49,249 nucleotides of DNA from Acholeplasma laidlawii (GTDB lineage: Bacteria > Bacillota_I > Bacilli_A > Acholeplasmatales > Acholeplasmataceae): contig NZ_JADNRS010000013.1 of NCBI RefSeq assembly GCF_015709225.1, positions 1-49,249 of the forward strand, given 5' to 3'. Below the pieces are notes generated by a model. The model worked only from the letters and a program-made list of their open reading frames with translations. It was not told the origin of the DNA and did no database searches. The first letter of the stretch is position 1. Each line of letters starts with the position of its first letter. Made by a program: the position numbers and the translations under genes. Shown here in pieces: positions 493-20,004 of the stretch.

Positions 493-613
493 TTTGTATC
501 AAAATAGGTAGCATCACACAGTCGAGTAAAGGGGATTTAAACCCTATTGAGTATTCTTGGGGTTAAAAGATCAATGATGGTGTTTCCGACAAGATAATTT
601 CATAGTAAAATCC

Positions 614-757
614 AAAAAATATGTTGCTTTGGTATTTTAACCACCTGTCTAACCATGTAAGGGGAAACATATTTTAGCCATATTTGATGTTACTTCAATA
701 CACACAGGGGTGATTTTGAAAGCAATATGGTTTTTTCAACGCACATTGAAAACATCG
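614..757 (+). repeat. Imperfect ~140-bp direct repeat, copy A
   Basis: This stretch aligns with 6240-6381 in the same orientation. Long shared blocks include ATGTTACTTCAATACACACA and TTTTTTCAACGCA. I judge roughly 80% identity by eye. The two copies lie about 5.6 kb apart and bracket the recombinase remnant and the zinc-ribbon/SPFH/lipoprotein module. A terminator follows within about 60 bp of each copy. No transposase is encoded in either copy. Confidence 0.7.
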
Positions 758-767
758 TATTGCTTTC
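718..767. repeat. Nested inverted repeat (stem-loop) at end of repeat copy A
   Basis: GAAAGCAATA (718-727) pairs with TATTGCTTTC (758-767), and inside it TTTTCAA (733-739) pairs with TTGAAAA (746-752). Two stacked perfect stems of 10 and 7 bp would form a strong hairpin or cruciform. The equivalent place in copy B has lost most of the outer pairing. Confidence 0.7.
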
Positions 768-808
768 TTTAAAAACGGCTTAATAAAGACATTCTTATAA
801 TAGAACAA

Positions 809-850
809 GAAGCATTTACCCCTTTAAAACTGGGTTAAATGCTTCTTTTT
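809..850 (+). terminator. Rho-independent terminator
   Basis: GAAGCATTTACCC pairs with GGGTTAAATGCTTC (one bulged A), followed by TTTTT. It would end + strand transcription coming from 77-412 or the repeat region. Confidence 0.7.
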
Positions 851-861
851 TACTTTTTGCC

Positions 862-897
862 CAATGTGGAAACATATCAAAATCAATGTGGAAACAT
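862..897 (+). repeat. Two direct repeats of CAATGTGGAAACAT
   Basis: Identical 14-mers lie at 862-875 and 884-897 (22-bp period). A near-identical inverted copy (15 of 16 bases) lies inside the neighbouring minus-strand gene at 1007-1022. Nothing else is seen between the terminator and that gene. Confidence 0.55.
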
Positions 898-955
898 CAA
901 ACTATGCTCTAAGCATATATTTTCTTGAGTGTGAGAACATCTATTTGCTAAAAAA

Positions 956-1315
956 TTATATCACTACAAACCGATATAACATCTTAGCTAAGCCATCGGG
1001 TGTGTGATATGTTTCCACAATGATTGGTTCAGTTTTTGAGAACTCAAAACGTCGTTCTTTGAACTCATTGTCTGAATAATTCTTGGTTCCAGCAATACAG
1101 TATACGATTTCATTTGGACTGACTGATATCATTCTATAGATGAATGTACTTAAAATCTCTGAATCAAGTTCATCGATGACTAAATTCTTTTTACCTAAAA
1201 TATCATTGATTTTATCCATACGTTTTCTGGTGTCATAATTTTTTACGTGTTCAAGTTCATTCGCAACATCTTGCGATAAAATATCAATTTCGTGTTGTAT
1301 ATAATTAGGATTCAT
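956..1315 (-). CDS. Small protein, possible C-terminal remnant of a serine recombinase
   Basis: The 119-residue product resembles the tail of large serine recombinases: a charged helix (about residues 15-42, with R and K repeats), then 'DELDSEILSTFIYRMISVSP' leading into beta strands, the pattern seen where those enzymes read 'fDeel...lIerI.V..dg'. There is no catalytic N-terminal domain here. The frame stays open upstream only to a stop at 1364-1366, and the XRE gene lies there on the other strand, so any missing part is gone. No clear Shine-Dalgarno precedes ATG 1315. The family call is from pattern recognition only; an unrelated small hypothetical protein is the alternative. Confidence 0.45.
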   Translation of the reverse strand: MNPNYIQHEIDILSQDVANELEHVKNYDTRKRMDKINDILGKKNLVIDELDSEILSTFIYRMISVSPNEIVYCIAGTKNYSDNEFKERRFEFSKTEPIIVETYHTPDGLAKMLYRFVVI

Positions 1316-1356
1316 GATATTATTAATTAACAGCCTTATGAAAGGTGCGTGATAAT

Positions 1357-1563
1357 ATGAAAATCAGTTATAAGAAACTTTGGATATTACTTATAGAAAA
1401 GGACATTTCACAAGCTGATTTCAGAGTAGATTTAAATATAGCAACTGGTACAATGACAAAACTTAGAAGAAACGAAGAAGTCGCTCTTTCGGTTTTATTA
1501 AGAATCTGTGAGTACCTTAAATGTAACATTGGTGATATTTGCGAAGCAGTTAATGAGGTATAA
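1357..1563 (+). CDS. XRE/Cro-type helix-turn-helix regulator, 68 aa
   Basis: The product is a minimal Cro/C1-type DNA-binding domain. It begins MKISYKKLW, has the HTH around 'ATGTMTKLRRNEEVALSVLL' and ends with the typical 'CEYLKCNIGDICE'. Such one-domain regulators usually control the neighbouring operon or a mobile element. ATG 1357 is chosen because AAAGGTG lies 9 bases upstream; a GTG at 1345 in the same frame would fall on that Shine-Dalgarno. Only 25 bp separate it from the zinc-ribbon gene, so it is probably the first gene of that operon and may regulate it. The target is inferred from position. Confidence 0.85.
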   Translation: MKISYKKLWILLIEKDISQADFRVDLNIATGTMTKLRRNEEVALSVLLRICEYLKCNIGDICEAVNEV

Positions 1564-1588
1564 AAAAATTTAATAGAAGGATATATAA

Positions 1589-2983
1589 ATGGGGAAAAAT
1601 GTCTTAGCATTTGATGAAGTAATTCTATTAGAGGATGGTGACATCTCGTATTCAGGAAGTGTAGATGGTTTGGATTATCTTGATAAAATTACTTTAACGA
1701 ACAAAAGAATCATAGCACAATGGTCCAAGAAAAAAGAAGAAAAGAAATTTGAAGTTCAGTTAACTGATATAAAAATTTACAATAATGAATTACAAGTTGA
1801 TTACTTTGAGCATGATGAAATCGGAGATTGTTTGAGAATTCAAACAATAAATGGTATAGAGTCATTTAGTCTGAATAACATCAAAGATGAATCAATTGTT
1901 AACTCGTTTAGAAAAATGTTTTCGTCAAAATCAAATTCTAATGAGTATAAAACGGTCATGCTTTGGGTCGACAAAATAAAAGAGGCTACTTTACACAAAA
2001 AAACAAATCCCTCAACAGCACTTAAACAAGAACATAACATTCAGTCCAAAGAAATCAAGAAAATAATTGTATCTGATAAAGAAGTTATTACTTGTACAAA
2101 TTGCGGTGATCATTTTGATAAAATATCACGTTTTTGCCCTTCTTGTGGAACTTCTGTAGAAAAACCAAAAGTTATAGAAGTAGAAAAAGTAGTTGAAGTT
2201 ATTCGTTGCAGAATATGTGGTTCAACAATTGGCGCAGATACTAAATTTTGCTCTTCATGTGGGACATCAGTCATTGATAAAAACAAAGAAGATACGATAA
2301 TTAATCCAGTAATTGATATTAAAAAGCCAAGAGAAAAATCAGTTCATAAATGTATTATCTGCGGTGAAATATTGCCTTCTGACTCACTTAAATGTCCTTC
2401 TTGTGGTAATGAGGTGCGCGGTAGAAAAACGGTAATATCAGTACGTGAATTCTTTGATAAAATTAGTAGTATCGATGATGAAAACAAGAAAATTGAAGCT
2501 ATTAAACTATACCCGATTCCAAATAATAAGGAAGATATAACTGAATTTATGTTTCTTGCAAGTTCTAGTTTTGATGCTGAGTATTACGTAACGAATAAGC
2601 AAGGGGATAGCATAGCTAATGCCTGGTACACAAAAATTGAACAATGTTATAAGAAAACCGTAATGATGTTCACTAATCCTAGTGATATTCAAATTGTCGA
2701 GAAAATATATAAAGAAGTACAAATGAAAACGGAAAATATAAAACGTAACAAGTTTATATTAAGTGTTACAGGAACCGCACTAATTATTATTTCAGTCATT
2801 TTGATCGGGGTTAGTCCAAGAACAGAAGATGGTACAGCGAAAGTGACATTTTTATCGTACATTTCATTTGCAATAATGACGATTGGAATTATTTCTCTAG
2901 TCTTAGGATTAAAGAAAAAGAAAACAAATAGACAAATTGAAGAAGAAAAATACGCAAAAGCAAATAAAAAAAATAAAAGATAG
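1589..2983 (+). CDS. Zinc-ribbon membrane protein with PH-like N-terminus (YdjG/YdjH-like)
   Basis: This 464-residue protein has an N-terminal beta-rich PH/GRAM-like region (about 8-110, 'LTNKRIIAQW'). Three zinc ribbons follow, with CxxC pairs starting near residues 169 (CTNCG...CPSCG), 207 (CRICG...CSSCG) and 255 (CIICG...CPSCG). After a soluble region come two C-terminal membrane helices (about 388-408 and 419-441) and a lysine-rich tail. GAAGGA lies upstream of ATG 1589. It sits 15 bp before the SPFH gene. In Bacillus, zinc-ribbon membrane proteins YdjG and YdjH work with the SPFH protein YdjI to recruit PspA to the membrane. The architecture suggests a similar membrane-stress or scaffold role, but that is inference. 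Confidence 0.75.
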   Translation: MGKNVLAFDEVILLEDGDISYSGSVDGLDYLDKITLTNKRIIAQWSKKKEEKKFEVQLTDIKIYNNELQVDYFEHDEIGDCLRIQTINGIESFSLNNIKDESIVNSFRKMFSSKSNSNEYKTVMLWVDKIKEATLHKKTNPSTALKQEHNIQSKEIKKIIVSDKEVITCTNCGDHFDKISRFCPSCGTSVEKPKVIEVEKVVEVIRCRICGSTIGADTKFCSSCGTSVIDKNKEDTIINPVIDIKKPREKSVHKCIICGEILPSDSLKCPSCGNEVRGRKTVISVREFFDKISSIDDENKKIEAIKLYPIPNNKEDITEFMFLASSSFDAEYYVTNKQGDSIANAWYTKIEQCYKKTVMMFTNPSDIQIVEKIYKEVQMKTENIKRNKFILSVTGTALIIISVILIGVSPRTEDGTAKVTFLSYISFAIMTIGIISLVLGLKKKKTNRQIEEEKYAKANKKNKR

Positions 2984-2998
2984 ATCAGAGGGGATAAA

Positions 2999-4291
2999 AT
3001 GGGAATATTTAATAAACTTAAAACAGGTGGTATGGCTGATGTCATTCGTTGTGATGAGTCAAACTATTTAGTATGGAAGTGGCATCCTACTAAATATGAA
3101 CAAGGAGCTCTAAAGAGAGAAACAGCAATTAGAACAAATTCTATACTCAGAGTAAAAACTGGTGAAGTAGCTGTTTTTGTTTATAAGCAAAAAAATGGCA
3201 CAATGCATGATTATATTGTTGGTCCTTATGATGAAAAAATAAGAACAAAAAACTTTCCTATCTTATCTTCAATCATTGGTCTTTGGTATGAAGGGGACAC
3301 ACCATTCCAAGCAGAAGTATATTTCATTAATATTGCTGAAGCTATCCAGATAAGATTTGGTATTCCTTATTTTGATGTTATCGATTCGAGATTTCCAGAC
3401 TTTCAAGTGCCTGTTGCAGTCAGAGGAACATTAACATTTAAATTAGAAGATTATAAAGCATTCTTAAAATATCATCAACTCATAAATTTCAGTTTAGATG
3501 ACCTTAAGAATAAGATTAGTGCTGCTTTAACACGATATATTAAGGAAATTGTTACAAATGCGCCATCAGAACATAATATACCGCTTATCGCACTGGAATC
3601 TAAAATTGATCTCATAAATGAAAAAGTTGAAATATATGTCAAAGACAGACTAATTGATTTATTTGGTGTATCTGTAACAGGCTTGGATCTAAGCGCGATT
3701 GAAGTTGATAAAGAATCTGAAGCTTATGTTGAGCTTAAGAGAGTTACTAAAGATATTACTGCTAGTAAAATTGAGACAGATCTCCTTAATTATCAAGAAG
3801 AGCTTAGAATAAGAAGAGAAGAAACACAGTATGCTCAGAGAATGTCTACTAGACAAACTAACATTGGAGCTTATCAAACTCAAGTTGGGGGAGAAGTTGG
3901 AGTTGCTGGAGCAGAAGCTCTTGGTAGAATGGGTGAGAAAGGAGCTGGAAATATAGATCTTGGCGGACAAGGAGCAGGATTTAATCCTGTAACAATAATG
4001 GCTGGTATGGCTGTTGGATCTGCAGTTGGAAAAAACATTTCAGAGACACTAGATCAGTCACTCAATCAGAATAGAACAGGGCAAGTTGTTCCACCGATCA
4101 TCCCAGTTACAAAATACTATGTTGCAAAAGAAGGAAAGCCTACTGGCCCTTATGATTTGAATACATTAAAAAATATGCTAACAACCGGTGATTTTGATTC
4201 TGGAAGTTTAGTTTGGAAAGAAGGAATGTCTGAATGGCAAAAAGCAGGCATGCAAAATGAACTTTCTGGAATTTTTCCACCTAAGATATAA
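2999..4291 (+). CDS. SPFH-domain protein with C-terminal GYF_2 domain (YdjI/virion-core-like)
   Basis: The first ~270 residues match the SPFH protein family often labelled 'virion core protein' or YdjI: 'ADVIRCDESNYLVWKWHP', 'RVKTGEVAVFVYKQKNG', then the 'FPDFQVPVAVRGTLTFKLED' segment and a helical region ending near residue 290. A glycine/alanine-rich linker (about 300-350) leads to a GYF_2 domain at 371-430 (YYVAKEGKPTGPYDL, LVWKEGMSEWQKAG). These proteins assemble on membranes and scaffold partners; GYF domains bind peptides, often proline-rich. AGAGGGG precedes ATG 2999. It is the middle gene of the module, after the zinc-ribbon protein and before a lipoprotein. Confidence 0.85.
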   Translation: MGIFNKLKTGGMADVIRCDESNYLVWKWHPTKYEQGALKRETAIRTNSILRVKTGEVAVFVYKQKNGTMHDYIVGPYDEKIRTKNFPILSSIIGLWYEGDTPFQAEVYFINIAEAIQIRFGIPYFDVIDSRFPDFQVPVAVRGTLTFKLEDYKAFLKYHQLINFSLDDLKNKISAALTRYIKEIVTNAPSEHNIPLIALESKIDLINEKVEIYVKDRLIDLFGVSVTGLDLSAIEVDKESEAYVELKRVTKDITASKIETDLLNYQEELRIRREETQYAQRMSTRQTNIGAYQTQVGGEVGVAGAEALGRMGEKGAGNIDLGGQGAGFNPVTIMAGMAVGSAVGKNISETLDQSLNQNRTGQVVPPIIPVTKYYVAKEGKPTGPYDLNTLKNMLTTGDFDSGSLVWKEGMSEWQKAGMQNELSGIFPPKI

Positions 4292-4324
4292 AATAAATTA
4301 AGCGAAAAGAAGGGGGTGTATGCT

Positions 4325-4372
4325 ATGTTTAATAATATGATTAAATTAAGCATACCAAATATTTATGAATAG
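4325..4372 (+). CDS. 15-codon leader ORF coupled to the lipoprotein gene
   Basis: The strong ribosome site AGAAGGGGGTG (4309-4318) serves ATG 4325, not the lipoprotein start. It opens a 15-codon frame (MFNNMIKLSIPNIYE) ending at TAG 4370-4372. That stop overlaps the lipoprotein ATG at 4365, which has no Shine-Dalgarno of its own. An inverted repeat, GTATGCT (4318-4324) with AGCATAC (4349-4355), could hide or expose the leader start. This suggests translational coupling or leader-based control. Confidence 0.55.
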   Translation: MFNNMIKLSIPNIYE

Positions 4373-6179
4373 ACTTAGATATATTTCTTTAATCATATTA
4401 GTGATTTTTGCATTTACTTTAGCAGGTTGTGAAGATGCTACAGAACTTGGAGAAAATGAAGTAAGAGTAAAAGTGTCTGCCTCGTCTCTCGTTGGAACAC
4501 ATTATGAAGATGTTGTTGAACAATTGGAGGTTTGGGGTTTTACAAACATTGAAACTGAAGCTGTTTATGACATCATTTGGGGTATTACAAAAGAAGGTAC
4601 CACAAAAAGTGTCAAAATTGGTGGATCAGAGAGTTTTTTATCTGGTGATATTTATGATAAGGATGTCTCGATATTAGTTAAATATTCTATGAAAGCTTCA
4701 AGTGATCCCTCTAAACAAACATTTGATATTACATGGAAAAATGAAGATGGGACCACTTTGAAAACTGATAAAGTAACCTTTGGAAATATGCCATCTTATA
4801 ATGGAAGCATTCCAACAAAAGTTGCTGTAGAAGAAAAGAAATATGAGTTTAGCGGATGGACTCCTGAACTTGAGCCCGCTACTGAAAATAAGACGTATAC
4901 AGCAACGTTTATAGAAGTCGAAAATAGATTCACCGTAAGTTATAATTTAGAGGGTGGACAATGGGACTTAGACAACACTCAAAGTATTATATATAATGGA
5001 TTAATTACTGCCTCAATTCCATCAAAAGAAGGTTATGATTTTGCAGGTTGGGTAATAAAGGGATTTTGGTCTGATACGAAATTTGATTCATCAACTAATA
5101 TTAAACAAGATTACAATCTTTCTGCAACTTGGACTGCTTCTAAATTAACAGTTTCATATGATTTGGATGGTGGTGTTTGGTCTATAAGCAATGATCAATC
5201 TCTAAACTATAACGATAAAATTACTACAACAAAACCAACGAAGGATGGCCATAACTTCATGGGATGGTTATTTGATGGTGCACTGTTTGATGTAAACACA
5301 CCTGTGAAAAGCAATATTGTTCTCAAAGCATTTTGGGAACTTCCAAATTATGAAGATATTTTAGTAGGAAGATGGGAAGGTGTTTATGAAAGTTCTAAAG
5401 CTTACGGTTTTAGTTTCATCGAATTTGATGGATATTTCCATGACTCAGATGGCCATCGAACAAGTGGATTAAGAGACTTTGATTATAATTGGGGTTCATT
5501 CACATTGTATGGTAATAAAATGGGCATTAATTATATTGATGTTGGTACTGTATATTTTACTATTTCATACAATAATGATACTGAACGAATAACTTTGAAA
5601 AATAGCAATTATCCAGATATAGTATTACGAAAGACAGAAGATGAACCAAATTCTCTTGCTTGGAAATGGAATCATTTATATGAATTTGCAAAAACAAGAA
5701 GTAAATCAAAAATAGATGAATATGGTGTATATTATGAAATTGAGATGAGTTTGGAAACATCAAATTTGAGTCCTATTAATAAACAAGTAGAAACAACTAG
5801 ACAAATTATGAAAGTATACCAAGATAAACTCATTGATATGTATTTCTATTATAATGGGATTAATGATCCTAATATAGAAATGATTGTAAATGTAGCATTT
5901 GATTACAAGTTGATATCAAACAACAGGATAACAAATGTATATATTTCAATTAAGTCAGAGGGTTATACAATGGTAACGAATAAAGCAGTAGTGGATTTTG
6001 AATTTGACGAGTATAATGAGTTTTGGTTTACTATATCAAATCTTACAGAGAATGTAAATAACTTCCCTATCTCAAGTAATAATGTGTTACTTGATCTAGA
6101 ATATTTTGGTAGAACAGTTTTATTTAATTATGCCGACTTCTTGTTAAAAGAACATGAAATATATATGTTTACAAAATAA
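4365..6179 (+). CDS. Surface lipoprotein with InlB-type B-repeats
   Basis: The protein begins with a lipoprotein signal peptide ending FTLAGC (lipid cysteine at 22). A PASTA-like segment follows (about 40-105, 'GTHYEDVVEQLEVWGFTNI', 'SVKIGG'), a module also found in Gram-positive proteins beside SHOCT or SPFH genes. Three InlB/Flg_new repeats lie near 116-182, 187-255 and 259-325 (SYNLEGGQWDL, SYDLDGGVWSI, with conserved FxGW). The last ~280 residues are an unrecognised beta-rich domain. It should be anchored on the outer membrane face and bind a ligand or surface. It is the last gene of the module and ends 60 bp before repeat copy B. Confidence 0.8.
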   Translation: MNRLRYISLIILVIFAFTLAGCEDATELGENEVRVKVSASSLVGTHYEDVVEQLEVWGFTNIETEAVYDIIWGITKEGTTKSVKIGGSESFLSGDIYDKDVSILVKYSMKASSDPSKQTFDITWKNEDGTTLKTDKVTFGNMPSYNGSIPTKVAVEEKKYEFSGWTPELEPATENKTYTATFIEVENRFTVSYNLEGGQWDLDNTQSIIYNGLITASIPSKEGYDFAGWVIKGFWSDTKFDSSTNIKQDYNLSATWTASKLTVSYDLDGGVWSISNDQSLNYNDKITTTKPTKDGHNFMGWLFDGALFDVNTPVKSNIVLKAFWELPNYEDILVGRWEGVYESSKAYGFSFIEFDGYFHDSDGHRTSGLRDFDYNWGSFTLYGNKMGINYIDVGTVYFTISYNNDTERITLKNSNYPDIVLRKTEDEPNSLAWKWNHLYEFAKTRSKSKIDEYGVYYEIEMSLETSNLSPINKQVETTRQIMKVYQDKLIDMYFYYNGINDPNIEMIVNVAFDYKLISNNRITNVYISIKSEGYTMVTNKAVVDFEFDEYNEFWFTISNLTENVNNFPISSNNVLLDLEYFGRTVLFNYADFLLKEHEIYMFTK

Positions 6180-6239
6180 AGGACAATCAATTTATCGAGA
6201 ATCCACTAAAAGCAAATCTCAGATACAGCAGGATACGAA

Positions 6240-6381
6240 TAAAAATATGTTACTTTGGTATTTTAGACCTTTTCAACCATGTAATGGTAAACATAATTTG
6301 GCTGATTCTGATGTTACTTCAATACACACAGGGTTGATTTTGCAAGCAATATAGTTTTTTCAACGCATATAGAAAATATCA
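6240..6381 (+). repeat. Imperfect ~140-bp direct repeat, copy B
   Basis: This is the second copy of the sequence at 614-757, starting 60 bp after the lipoprotein stop. The central block ATGTTACTTCAATACACACA is identical in both. The inverted repeat at its right end has decayed compared with copy A, so the copies have diverged separately. Confidence 0.7.
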
Positions 6382-6429
6382 TTCTTCTTGAGTTAAAATA
6401 ACATACTAAATTACAAAGTGTATAAATAA

Positions 6430-6815: not shown

Positions 6816-7529
6816 ATGAAAAAAATGTTTGTTTTTGATTATGACGGGACTTACTACAGGAATAATGAAGAACTGCAAAAAAACATAAAACTTATGGATA
6901 GTGTGCGGAAAAAAGGACATTTGCTTGTTATTGCAACGGGTAGAAGTTATGTAAGTTTTATGAATGAGGTAGCAAAATTTAATATTGATTATGACTATCT
7001 AATCTTATCTAGTGGAGCATTAATCTTAGACAAAAATGAATATATCATAGGTTCATATTTAATGGATTTAAATTTAGTAAAAGGTGTTAATAAATTACTA
7101 GAACCATATCATGCGAGTTTACAATCTCAAATGTATATTGATGAGTTCATGAACAGTGAAATTTTATCTCAACTAAATCAAGTCATTAAAATGACATATA
7201 CCTTTAATAAAGGTGATATCAGTTATGATATACAACAGTTAGTTAACACATATACCCATGAAGCATTTAAAACATATGTCGTTACTGGAGCATCTTATGA
7301 TTATGTAGAAATTATTTCGTCTAAGACAAATAAAGCAATCGCCGTATTAGATTTACTCAAATATATTCAGGAAGACTACAGTATAGTAGCTGCAGGTGAT
7401 AGTGAAAATGATGTTGAAATGCTCATCGAATTTGATGGTTATCTAATGAATAATCACGATCCTAGACTAGATACGTACCGACTAAGATTCACTGATTCCA
7501 TAGAATCAATTGTAAAAAAAGAAATATAG
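6816..7529 (+). CDS. HAD-superfamily Cof-type phosphatase
   Basis: The 237-residue protein has all haloacid-dehalogenase motifs: DYDGT at residues 8-12 (nucleophile D8, acid/base D10), 'ATGRS' near 41-45, and the metal site 'AGDSENDVEM' near 194-203. The long cap between motifs II and III fits the IIB (Cof) group, which dephosphorylates sugar phosphates, FMN or PLP. Length is slightly below the usual 260-280 residues. AAGAGGT precedes ATG 6816. It is a single-gene unit with its own promoter and a terminator after it. The exact substrate cannot be read from sequence. Confidence 0.88.
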   Translation: MKKMFVFDYDGTYYRNNEELQKNIKLMDSVRKKGHLLVIATGRSYVSFMNEVAKFNIDYDYLILSSGALILDKNEYIIGSYLMDLNLVKGVNKLLEPYHASLQSQMYIDEFMNSEILSQLNQVIKMTYTFNKGDISYDIQQLVNTYTHEAFKTYVVTGASYDYVEIISSKTNKAIAVLDLLKYIQEDYSIVAAGDSENDVEMLIEFDGYLMNNHDPRLDTYRLRFTDSIESIVKKEI

Positions 7530-17360: not shown

Positions 17361-17370
17361 TTTTTCAAAG

Positions 17371-17597
17371 TGATGAAGAAGAGTAGTAATTTATTTAACT
17401 TTTCATAGAGAGCTGATGGTTGGTGTAAATCAGTAAGAGTGATGAATGAACGTGCTTTGGAGCTTTTAAATCGAGTGTTGATGAGGTTTAAACGTATGTC
17501 GGCGTTAACGATATAAGTGCTAGATTTTTTGATCTAGAACTAAGGTGGTACCGCGATTAATTCGTCCTTAGACATTATTGTCTAGGGACTTTTTTAT
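17371..17597 (+). ncRNA. T-box leader, complete unit (probable arginine specifier)
   Basis: Stem I starts with the conserved AAGAGTAGTA (17379-17388) and includes AGAGAGCTGATGGTTGGTG. The specifier side reads GAA-CGT-G (17448-17454), so the specifier is probably CGU (Arg), followed by TTTGGAGC. The T-box sequence AAGGTGGTACCGCG is at 17542-17555. The terminator pairs GTCCTTAGACA with TGTCTAGGGAC (17564-17589) before a T run. Uncharged tRNA should pair with the specifier and with UGG of the T-box and stabilise the antiterminator. It precedes an amino-acid ABC transporter. Confidence 0.92.
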
Positions 17598-17776: not shown

Positions 17777-18586
17777 ATGATTAAAAAAATGTTATTAATG
17801 TTTATGGTAATGGGTGCTTTAACACTCATGGTTGGATGTGATATGGGAAGTTCGAATACGTTCACATTTATTATTGATGAATATTATGATGAATTTATTA
17901 CTATGGGTACATCCGCAGATTATGCACCATATGAATGGTTAGTAAAAGATGAAAATAATAACCAAACGGTTGTAGGTATTGATATTGAAATTGCTAAAGT
18001 TATCGCGAAACATGCAGGTAAAAACTTAAAAGTAATTCATAAGGGATTTGATTTTTTACTTGAGGACTTAGCAGATGGTCGTGTTGCTTTTGTTATATCA
18101 GCGATGACGCCAACACCTGAACGTGCAGAAATTGTAGATTTTTCAACTGTTTATTACATGGCTACACAAGTCGTATTAATTGAAAATAAAAATATTGATG
18201 TATATACTTCAGTAGAGTCTATGAATCTTTCTAATATTAGAATTGGGGCACAATTAGGTTCTATTCAACAAGATTACGCAAACGATCTATTTCAAGCACC
18301 ACAAAAACAATTTATTCAAGCAGTACCTGACTTAGTATTAGGCTTAACAAGCGGTCAATTAGCTGGTGTAATTATGGAAAAACCAGTTGCTGAAGGTTAT
18401 ATCAATAATATTACAGGTCTTTCTATCGCTAACTTTATACTTGGTAATCCAGAAGATGGATCTGCTGTTGCTGTAAGAAAGGGGAATAAAGCACTACTAG
18501 AACTTATCAATGATACAATTCAAATACTTCAAGAATCAGGTCAAATCGATCAATTTGTCAAAGATAGTGTTTTATTAAATAGCTAA
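17777..18586 (+). CDS. Polar amino-acid ABC transporter substrate-binding lipoprotein
   Basis: The 269-residue protein has a lipoprotein signal ending LMVGC (lipid Cys21) and a family-3 solute-binding domain with 'TSADYAPYEW', 'GIDIEIAKVIAKHAGK' and 'FVISAMTPTPERAEIVDFS'. These bind glutamine, arginine, lysine or histidine. AAAAAGGAG precedes ATG 17777. It is the first gene of a three-gene operon after the tandem T-box; the probable CGU specifier points to arginine as substrate. That assignment is inference from regulation, since the fold alone does not fix specificity. Confidence 0.9.
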   Translation: MIKKMLLMFMVMGALTLMVGCDMGSSNTFTFIIDEYYDEFITMGTSADYAPYEWLVKDENNNQTVVGIDIEIAKVIAKHAGKNLKVIHKGFDFLLEDLADGRVAFVISAMTPTPERAEIVDFSTVYYMATQVVLIENKNIDVYTSVESMNLSNIRIGAQLGSIQQDYANDLFQAPQKQFIQAVPDLVLGLTSGQLAGVIMEKPVAEGYINNITGLSIANFILGNPEDGSAVAVRKGNKALLELINDTIQILQESGQIDQFVKDSVLLNS

Positions 18587-18587
18587 T

Positions 18588-19265
18588 ATGGATTTTTCAT
18601 TCTTGCTAGATTTATTCTATGTAAAAACACTTCTACAAGGCGTGATTATCACTATAGTTCTTGCACTCATTGCAGTCTTAATGGGTACGCTTATAGCAGT
18701 GATTCCAACGTATTTTAGATTATCTAAACGTAAGATACTAAATTTTATTGGTGGAAGTTATGTAGAAATTATTCGTGGTACACCATTACTTGTTCAAGTA
18801 ATGCTTATCTATGCATTTGTAAAACTACCAGTTATGACCGTGTTAGGCATGGACTTTGGTGCATTTTTACTAGGTATGGTAGCACTTATTATTAATAGTA
18901 GTGCTTATGCATCTGAAACCTTTAGAGCAGGTATATTATCTATTGAAAAGGGTCAAAAAGAAGCTGGGCTTAGCTTAGGCATGACAGAAAAGAGCACCAT
19001 GCTTCACATCATTATGCCTCAAGCTATAAAAAATATCATGCCATCTTTAGGTAATGAATTTGTAACCTTAATTAAAGAAACATCTATATTTATGTATTTA
19101 GGAATTGCTGAACTTATGTATAGTGCACAAATTGTTAAGACATCAACTTATAGAACTAAAGAAGTGTACATTGTTACAGCATTACTTTATTTTGTTTTAA
19201 CATTTACAACATCTAAACTCATGTCAAAATTAGAGAAAAGGATGAGAAAACAAGATGAAAAATAA
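18588..19265 (+). CDS. Polar amino-acid ABC transporter permease (HisM/GlnP type)
   Basis: The 225-residue permease has about five membrane helices and the EAA loop '[20 protein letters not shown]' that contacts the ATPase. '[13 protein letters not shown]' is typical of the His/Glu/Gln/Arg permease family. It starts one base after the preceding stop, with no clear Shine-Dalgarno, so translation is probably coupled. It overlaps the ATPase gene by 11 bp. A single permease gene suggests a homodimer in the membrane. Confidence 0.93.
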
Positions 19266-20004
19266 ACTATTTGAAATTGTAAACCTAAATAAAAAATTTA
19301 ATGATGGTACACTTGCATTAAATCAAGTGAACTTAGATATTTATGAAGGCATTACAATCATTATTGGTCCATCTGGAAGTGGTAAGTCCACTTTACTTAG
19401 AACTTTGAATTTGATGGAGACACCAAGTTCGGGTGAAATTAATTATAAGGATAAAAGTATATTAAGTAAACATTTTAATATCAATGAACATCGTAAAGAG
19501 GTAGGTATGGTGTTTCAATCTTTTAACTTGTTTCCACATTTAACGGTTTTAGAAAACTTAAATATTGCTCAAAAAAATGTACTTAAACTTGATAAGGTTA
19601 CAGCGACCTATAAATCTCTATTTTATCTTGAAAAAGTGGGTTTACTCGATAAAAAAGATCAATATCCTGGAAAGTTAAGTGGTGGTCAAAAACAAAGAAT
19701 CGCTATAGCAAGATCTCTTTGTATGGAACCAAAAGTCATTTTATTTGATGAACCAACCTCAGCGCTTGATCCAGAAATGATTGGAGAAGTGTTACTAACA
19801 ATGAAATCTCTTGTTAAACTTGGGATGCATATGGTTATTGTCACACATGAAATGGGCTTTGCAGAAAGTATTGCAGATCAAGTAGTTTTCATGGATCAAG
19901 GTGAAATTATTGAAGTAGGAACACCAAACGACATTTTTAACAACTCTGGTAAAAAGCGTGTGATGGACTTTTTAGATAAACTTACCTTTAAAGATAACAT
20001 CTAA
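19255..20004 (+). CDS. Polar amino-acid ABC transporter ATPase (GlnQ/ArtP type)
   Basis: The 249-residue ATPase has Walker A 'GPSGSGKS', Q-loop '[16 protein letters not shown]', signature 'LSGGQKQR', Walker B '[15 protein letters not shown]' and H-loop 'VTHEMGFA', all typical of the GlnQ/HisP group. It completes the importer with the binding lipoprotein and permease. The gene starts within the end of the permease gene. No clear terminator follows, so some reading into the FNT gene is possible, although that gene has its own promoter. Confidence 0.94.

Follow-up and report, generated by a model that had tools for sequence, protein, structure and literature searches.

Four genes near the left end of a contig of Acholeplasma laidlawii lie between two imperfect direct repeats. 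The question is whether they constitute an exchangeable membrane module with the repeats as its ends, as the first-pass annotation proposed, and what such a module may do in its host. The genome (1.33 Mb in 55 contigs, G000 below) was compared with other species of the genus (G001-G007, of which G005 is the sister species) and with other genera, one of them represented by G038. The window is the whole contig C4 (NZ_JADNRS010000013.1, 49,249 nt). FtsW/RodA was not found in G000, while the controls were positive, and thus the host is probably wall-less. Further along the window, a T-box leader (17364-17572; RF00230, E 4.7e-33) precedes an ABC-transporter-like gene set (17777-20004).

The four-gene cassette and its candidate operator

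All four genes are on the plus strand, with intergenic gaps of 25, 15 and 73 nt. The ORF coordinates and Pfam matches agree with the order, common strand and short gaps claimed initially. The first gene (1357-1563, 68 aa; an alternative GTG start is possible at 1345) encodes a Cro/CI-type HTH regulator (HTH_26, E 9.7e-18) whose relatives are 72-89% identical.

The second gene (1589-2983, plus strand, 464 aa) encodes a zinc-ribbon membrane protein, ZnR, characterised by Pfam DZR/Zn_Ribbon matches, a family alignment and a structural model. An N-terminal domain is followed by three CxxC...CxxC zinc ribbons, a conserved helical domain and two C-terminal hydrophobic (TM) helices; the three ribbons and two helices were already recognised in the first-pass annotation. 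The PH-like fold suggested there for the N-terminus was not confirmed. The model has seven strands and then one helix, the order of a PH domain, but its confidence is low; it has no significant PDB match, and the Pfam search of this region was empty even at E 1.

The third gene (2999-4291, plus strand, 430 aa) encodes an SPFH protein consisting of Band_7_1 (E 1.4e-20), a long helix, a PPxxP motif and the expected C-terminal GYF_2 tail (E 3.8e-15). The fourth (4365-6179, plus strand, 604 aa) encodes a lipoprotein with the lipobox LAGC, a PASTA-like segment, the anticipated InlB (Flg_new) repeats (E 4.5e-15) and a C-terminal domain of unknown type. The PASTA-like segment has no direct Pfam match in the window; BLAST shows similarity (32-35% over 60 aa) to the outer part of ZnR homologues in loci L063 and L065.

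The left border of the cassette carries an operator-like palindrome, TCGCAACATCTTGCGA (1261-1276), 80 nt 5' of the HTH start. This is the sole match to TCGCAA-N(3-5)-TTGCGA in the G000 genome. With at most two mismatches, TCGCAA-N4-TTGCGA occurs upstream of the HTH gene in 11 of 12 distinct HTH loci, eight times exactly; the control, 643 kb of shuffled DNA, gave 17 matches to the operator pattern. This conservation suggests that the HTH protein may bind its own operator, which would make the module self-regulated. A scan for promoters and terminators performed no better than on shuffled sequence.

Direct repeats and a probable SCC-like array at rlmD

The direct repeats (615-774 and 6241-6398) are real: they are 82% identical along 160 nt (E 8e-40), much more than chance would give. 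However, they are not the ends of the cassette itself. They are att repeats of an SCC-like element at the 3' end of rlmD and are common to unrelated cargo, whereas the cassette begins at about 1259, inside a truncated recombinase gene.

Each repeat consists of an element end (about 130 bp or more) joined to the displaced last 50 bp or so of rlmD. The left one (518-790, plus strand) is composed of the element end 518-741 and the displaced rlmD end 742-790, with the predicted crossover CA at 742-743; the right one, a short form (6241-6398, plus strand), has it at 6366-6367. Contig C16 has an rlmD-family methyltransferase gene (TIGR00479, E 1.8e-81) whose 3' end is matched by positions 742-790 (91% over 47 nt). 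When repeat copies and rlmD ends are aligned, the left half is common to all repeats and unlike rlmD, and the right half, encoding HVENIVLL, is homologous to the rlmD end. The border between the halves reads CAACG-CA-CRTTG in most copies, that is, two inverted arms around a non-palindromic CA, which would be the crossover dinucleotide, as for a large serine recombinase. Near-identical DNA shared with G005 starts precisely at the predicted crossover, at 6367, and from there on the flank is collinear (90% DNA identity), its first gene encoding an HAD hydrolase (6816-7529, plus strand, 92% identical to that of G005). Within G000, copies of the repeats are confined to the two window sites and the rlmD end; matches were found in all eight genus genomes searched, that in G006 being only 31 bp long.

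Several sequences near the repeats are recorded here separately. Just left of the left repeat (440-500) a GGGGTGCTAA-type motif occurs three times at intervals, as also seen in G005 (L035:15750-15830, GGGGTGCGTAA), and elsewhere in the genus the first 38 bp or so of the long repeat form occur by themselves. Such motifs and the lone repeat start are perhaps a transposon end. A 111-aa ORF at the contig edge (77-412), with no significant Pfam match, is either cargo of a unit to the left or a remnant.

The recombinase relic (956-1259, minus strand) corresponds to the C-terminal 100 residues (486-585) of a 585-aa CcrB-related enzyme that is intact in G005 (L054:11635-13392), with 94% amino acid identity over these residues. 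The whole segment 518-1259 is 92.6% identical to the G005 repeat and recombinase tail. Homology to G005 stops at 1259 and homology to other cassette carriers starts at 1256-1261; since the two borders coincide, the cassette starts inside the recombinase gene. The 119-aa minus-strand ORF at 956-1315 is rejected as a gene, as it combines the recombinase tail with cassette DNA (the first 19 codons of the ORF) that contains the operator. On C16, too, rlmD is followed by a copy of this relic (96% over 447 nt). The intact G005 gene, on the opposite strand, stands beside one repeat, and its product is CcrB-related (E 1.6e-41) but falls below the Ccr equivalog cut-off.

The sister species show the general plan, in which rlmD is followed by cargo units that all end in a repeat. 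In G005 the order is an AAA_13 ATPase, a Pycsar cyclase with PycTM, a repeat, the recombinase and a type I methyltransferase; some 50 kb further there are a candidate McrBC pair (named by reading the sequence, with weak PADLOC support), another repeat and the HAD flank. In G002, ArsR and a metal ATPase are followed by a repeat, AbiEi/AbiEii, a repeat, a recombinase fragment and a repeat. In G001, G003 and G004, an ArsR-like and a metal-ATPase-like gene precede a repeat. The G003 array lies at a different rlmD paralogue, whose body is 35% identical to the G000 gene at the protein level, while its last 48 nt are 90% identical, which suggests that the element carries the rlmD 3' end along. G001-G007, G038, G078 and G219 each contain several RlmD/TrmA-family paralogues, and some of these, as in G003, seem to be alternative att sites.

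These observations suggest the following scheme. A CcrB-related serine recombinase would insert elements at the 3' end of rlmD-family genes, each insertion bringing a new last 50 bp or so of rlmD and pushing the old end outward. Cargo units would therefore pile up, each closed by an element end and an old rlmD end. The window unit (att, recombinase relic, cassette, element end, att) would be one decayed unit (742-6398) with the recombinase cut to its last 100 codons. We infer recombination activity from this arrangement, and the full array in G000 is likewise a reconstruction, since C16, which has rlmD, and C4, the window, are separate contigs.

The closest analogues are the SCC and ECC elements, in which ccrAB acts at rlmH and the att repeats are about 50 bp long with inverted arms (PMC6222049). 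The shared features are a CcrB-related large serine recombinase, insertion at the 3' end of an rRNA methyltransferase gene with variable cargo, supply of the gene 3' end by the element, and direct att repeats at both ends. However, the target here is rlmD rather than rlmH, and thus we call the element SCC-like, not SCC. Further differences are that one recombinase gene is seen instead of the ccrAB pair, that it scores below the Ccr cut-offs, that displaced rlmD ends give arrays of small decayed units, and that the host belongs to Acholeplasmataceae. In streptococcal ICEs a single serine integrase targets rumA (= rlmD) (PMC4701971). These share with our elements the target gene and the Resolvase, Recombinase and zinc-ribbon domains of the integrase, but there the integrase gene itself contains the att site, and the two genes swap their 3' parts (PMC4701971). 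In our case the recombinase gene runs convergently to rlmD and stops about 150 bp from it, and the window unit contains no conjugation module.

Conservation and exchange of the module

Searching with an alignment of four SPFH sequences yielded 37 loci, labelled in their records as Bacillota-type lineages, Bacteroidota, Verrucomicrobiaceae and Saccharibacteria; ZnR as a query against genome contigs gave no matches. A ZnR gene lies near the SPFH gene, on the same strand and mostly directly upstream, in 33 of the 35 loci with enough sequence, some of which are near-duplicates. Band_7_1 and GYF_2 co-occur in all 25 SPFH proteins examined, and a PPxxP-like motif N-terminal of GYF_2 is present in 33 of 36. 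This motif is a possible ligand for the GYF_2 domain of a neighbouring subunit.

The other two genes are less constant. HTH genes were found in 12 distinct loci. Separate lipoproteins with a PASTA-like segment, homologous to that of the window, occur in G005, G038, L060 and L074. In L063 and L065 ZnR itself carries a related segment as a fusion, and a separate lipoprotein was not seen; in the ZnR homologue of L093 a PASTA domain was detected with significance (E 4.7e-7). Judging from these loci, the conserved core is ZnR with SPFH-GYF, and the HTH regulator and lipoprotein are optional. The co-conservation expected of the SPFH, zinc-ribbon and lipoprotein genes therefore applies to the first two and not to the third.

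PspA (PF04012) was not detected in any of 29 carriers (G000 and 28 others), with positive controls; as many carriers are incomplete MAGs, such absences are provisional. The first-pass annotation had the cassette dropping PspA. G000 indeed has no detectable PspA, but this is general among the carriers examined rather than a local loss.

Within the genus, SPFH of the cassette type is present in two of eight species, being absent from six of the seven others, and it is sporadic in other genera. Between G000 and G005, RlmD is 95% and the HAD hydrolase 92% identical, but SPFH only 73%. Identity of the G000 SPFH to those of other genera is higher, 78-79%; with G038 it is 78%, while RlmD is 51% identical. 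By these comparisons the cassette is xenologous. Moreover, G005 has the window's site without the cassette and carries its own copy elsewhere, at 958 kb, at a distance from its rlmD-family matches (604, 537, 533 and 462 kb). The cassette is therefore not tied to the SCC-like element, which probably captured it. Its exchangeability in this genus is thus upheld. Mobility is not a general property of the core, since in several Bacteroidota it lies among apparent housekeeping genes, e.g. a methionyl-tRNA-synthetase-like gene (neighbours named by eye).

Viral contigs contained no matches to the module, and plasmids only matches of 22-25% identity. One match labelled 'Bacteriophage sp.' (MT835670.1, 48%) was set aside, as the record is an unverified scaffold of faecal origin and its ORFs, judged by eye, resemble bacterial ones. 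Its locus (L113:13515-15881) contains adjacent ZnR and SPFH-GYF genes, and PPPIP flanks GYF_2 on either side.

Possible function and competing explanations

Foldseek matches the SPFH model (pLDDT 73) to HflK/C, stomatin, prohibitin and flotillin at E 1e-7 to 1e-5. As in these cage proteins, the SPFH fold is followed by a long helix; sequence identity is 11-15%, and the PPxxP motif and GYF_2 are additions here. The model has no N-terminal TM helix, and thus anchoring probably needs the ZnR partner. ZnR would hold an SPFH oligomer, possibly a cage, at the inner membrane face, and GYF_2/PPxxP contacts may link subunits or clients. Reporting from outside would fall to the lipoprotein or, in relatives, to the PASTA domain fused to ZnR; the fusion in homologues where no separate lipoprotein is seen fits a membrane-spanning device.

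A Band-7 protein with a zinc-ribbon membrane protein in an operon is also the arrangement of B. subtilis pspA-ydjGHI (PMC8581546, PMC11237479, PMC9239133), where YdjI, together with YdjG/H, localises PspA to the membrane (PMC8581546). In contrast, neither PspA nor a TPM-type YdjH partner is seen here; the SPFH protein carries GYF_2, whereas a C-terminal zinc ribbon has been described for YdjI; and the module has its own HTH gene and operator and an optional lipoprotein or PASTA sensor. By this analogy, the module would stabilise or survey the membrane under stress as YdjG/H/I do. That it scaffolds or surveys the membrane without PspA seems to us the most likely role, and an extrapolation, since the known role of YdjI is PspA localisation and PspA is undetected here.

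On balance we consider it rather probable that the locus is an array of SCC-like cassettes carrying a PspA-independent, YdjGHI-like, self-regulated membrane module, even though the cassette of G005 lies outside the rlmD sites, the recombinase does not reach the Ccr equivalog cut-offs, and the lipoprotein and HTH genes are not always present. It is very improbable that the genes are an ordinary resident stress operon flanked by unrelated dispersed repeats, with the flank match a coincidence. The lone 38-bp repeat starts at other sites of the genus and the stability of the module in some Bacteroidota would suit such an operon, which is already disfavoured by the restriction of the repeats in G000 to three sites, the position of the sister copies after rlmD-family genes with varied cargo, the G005 site without the cassette and the xenology of SPFH.

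A more serious rival, possible though in our opinion somewhat doubtful, is an antiphage system, in which a membrane-associated SPFH complex triggered by phage is kept in a defence hotspot and moves with other defence genes. It owes its weight to the neighbours: the hotspot in the sisters carries Pycsar, AbiE, a type I methyltransferase (type I RM) and the AAA_13 ATPase besides the candidate McrBC, and in G038 Wadjet JetABC adjoins the module (L020:5384-12076, where a fourth gene, encoding 441 aa, has no PADLOC match). A patchy, xenologous distribution and a regulator with a dedicated operator would also be in line with defence. However, metal efflux genes share the hotspot, no PADLOC model matched the SPFH protein at E 1e-3, and the Bacteroidota carriers with apparent housekeeping neighbours are at odds with such a role.

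The membrane-module reading can tentatively be widened to a PspA-free SPFH-GYF/ZnR system of membrane surveillance, perhaps of defence, that is spread across phyla, has an interchangeable external sensor (lipoprotein or PASTA fusion) and in Acholeplasmataceae became cargo of an SCC-like array at rlmD. A widespread SPFH module where PspA is not found would let SPFH and zinc-ribbon proteins be studied alone at the membrane. For the family, which is probably wall-less, the locus would be an extension of SCC-type gene capture, with rlmD as the target, and it offers a place to look for further cargo and defence genes.
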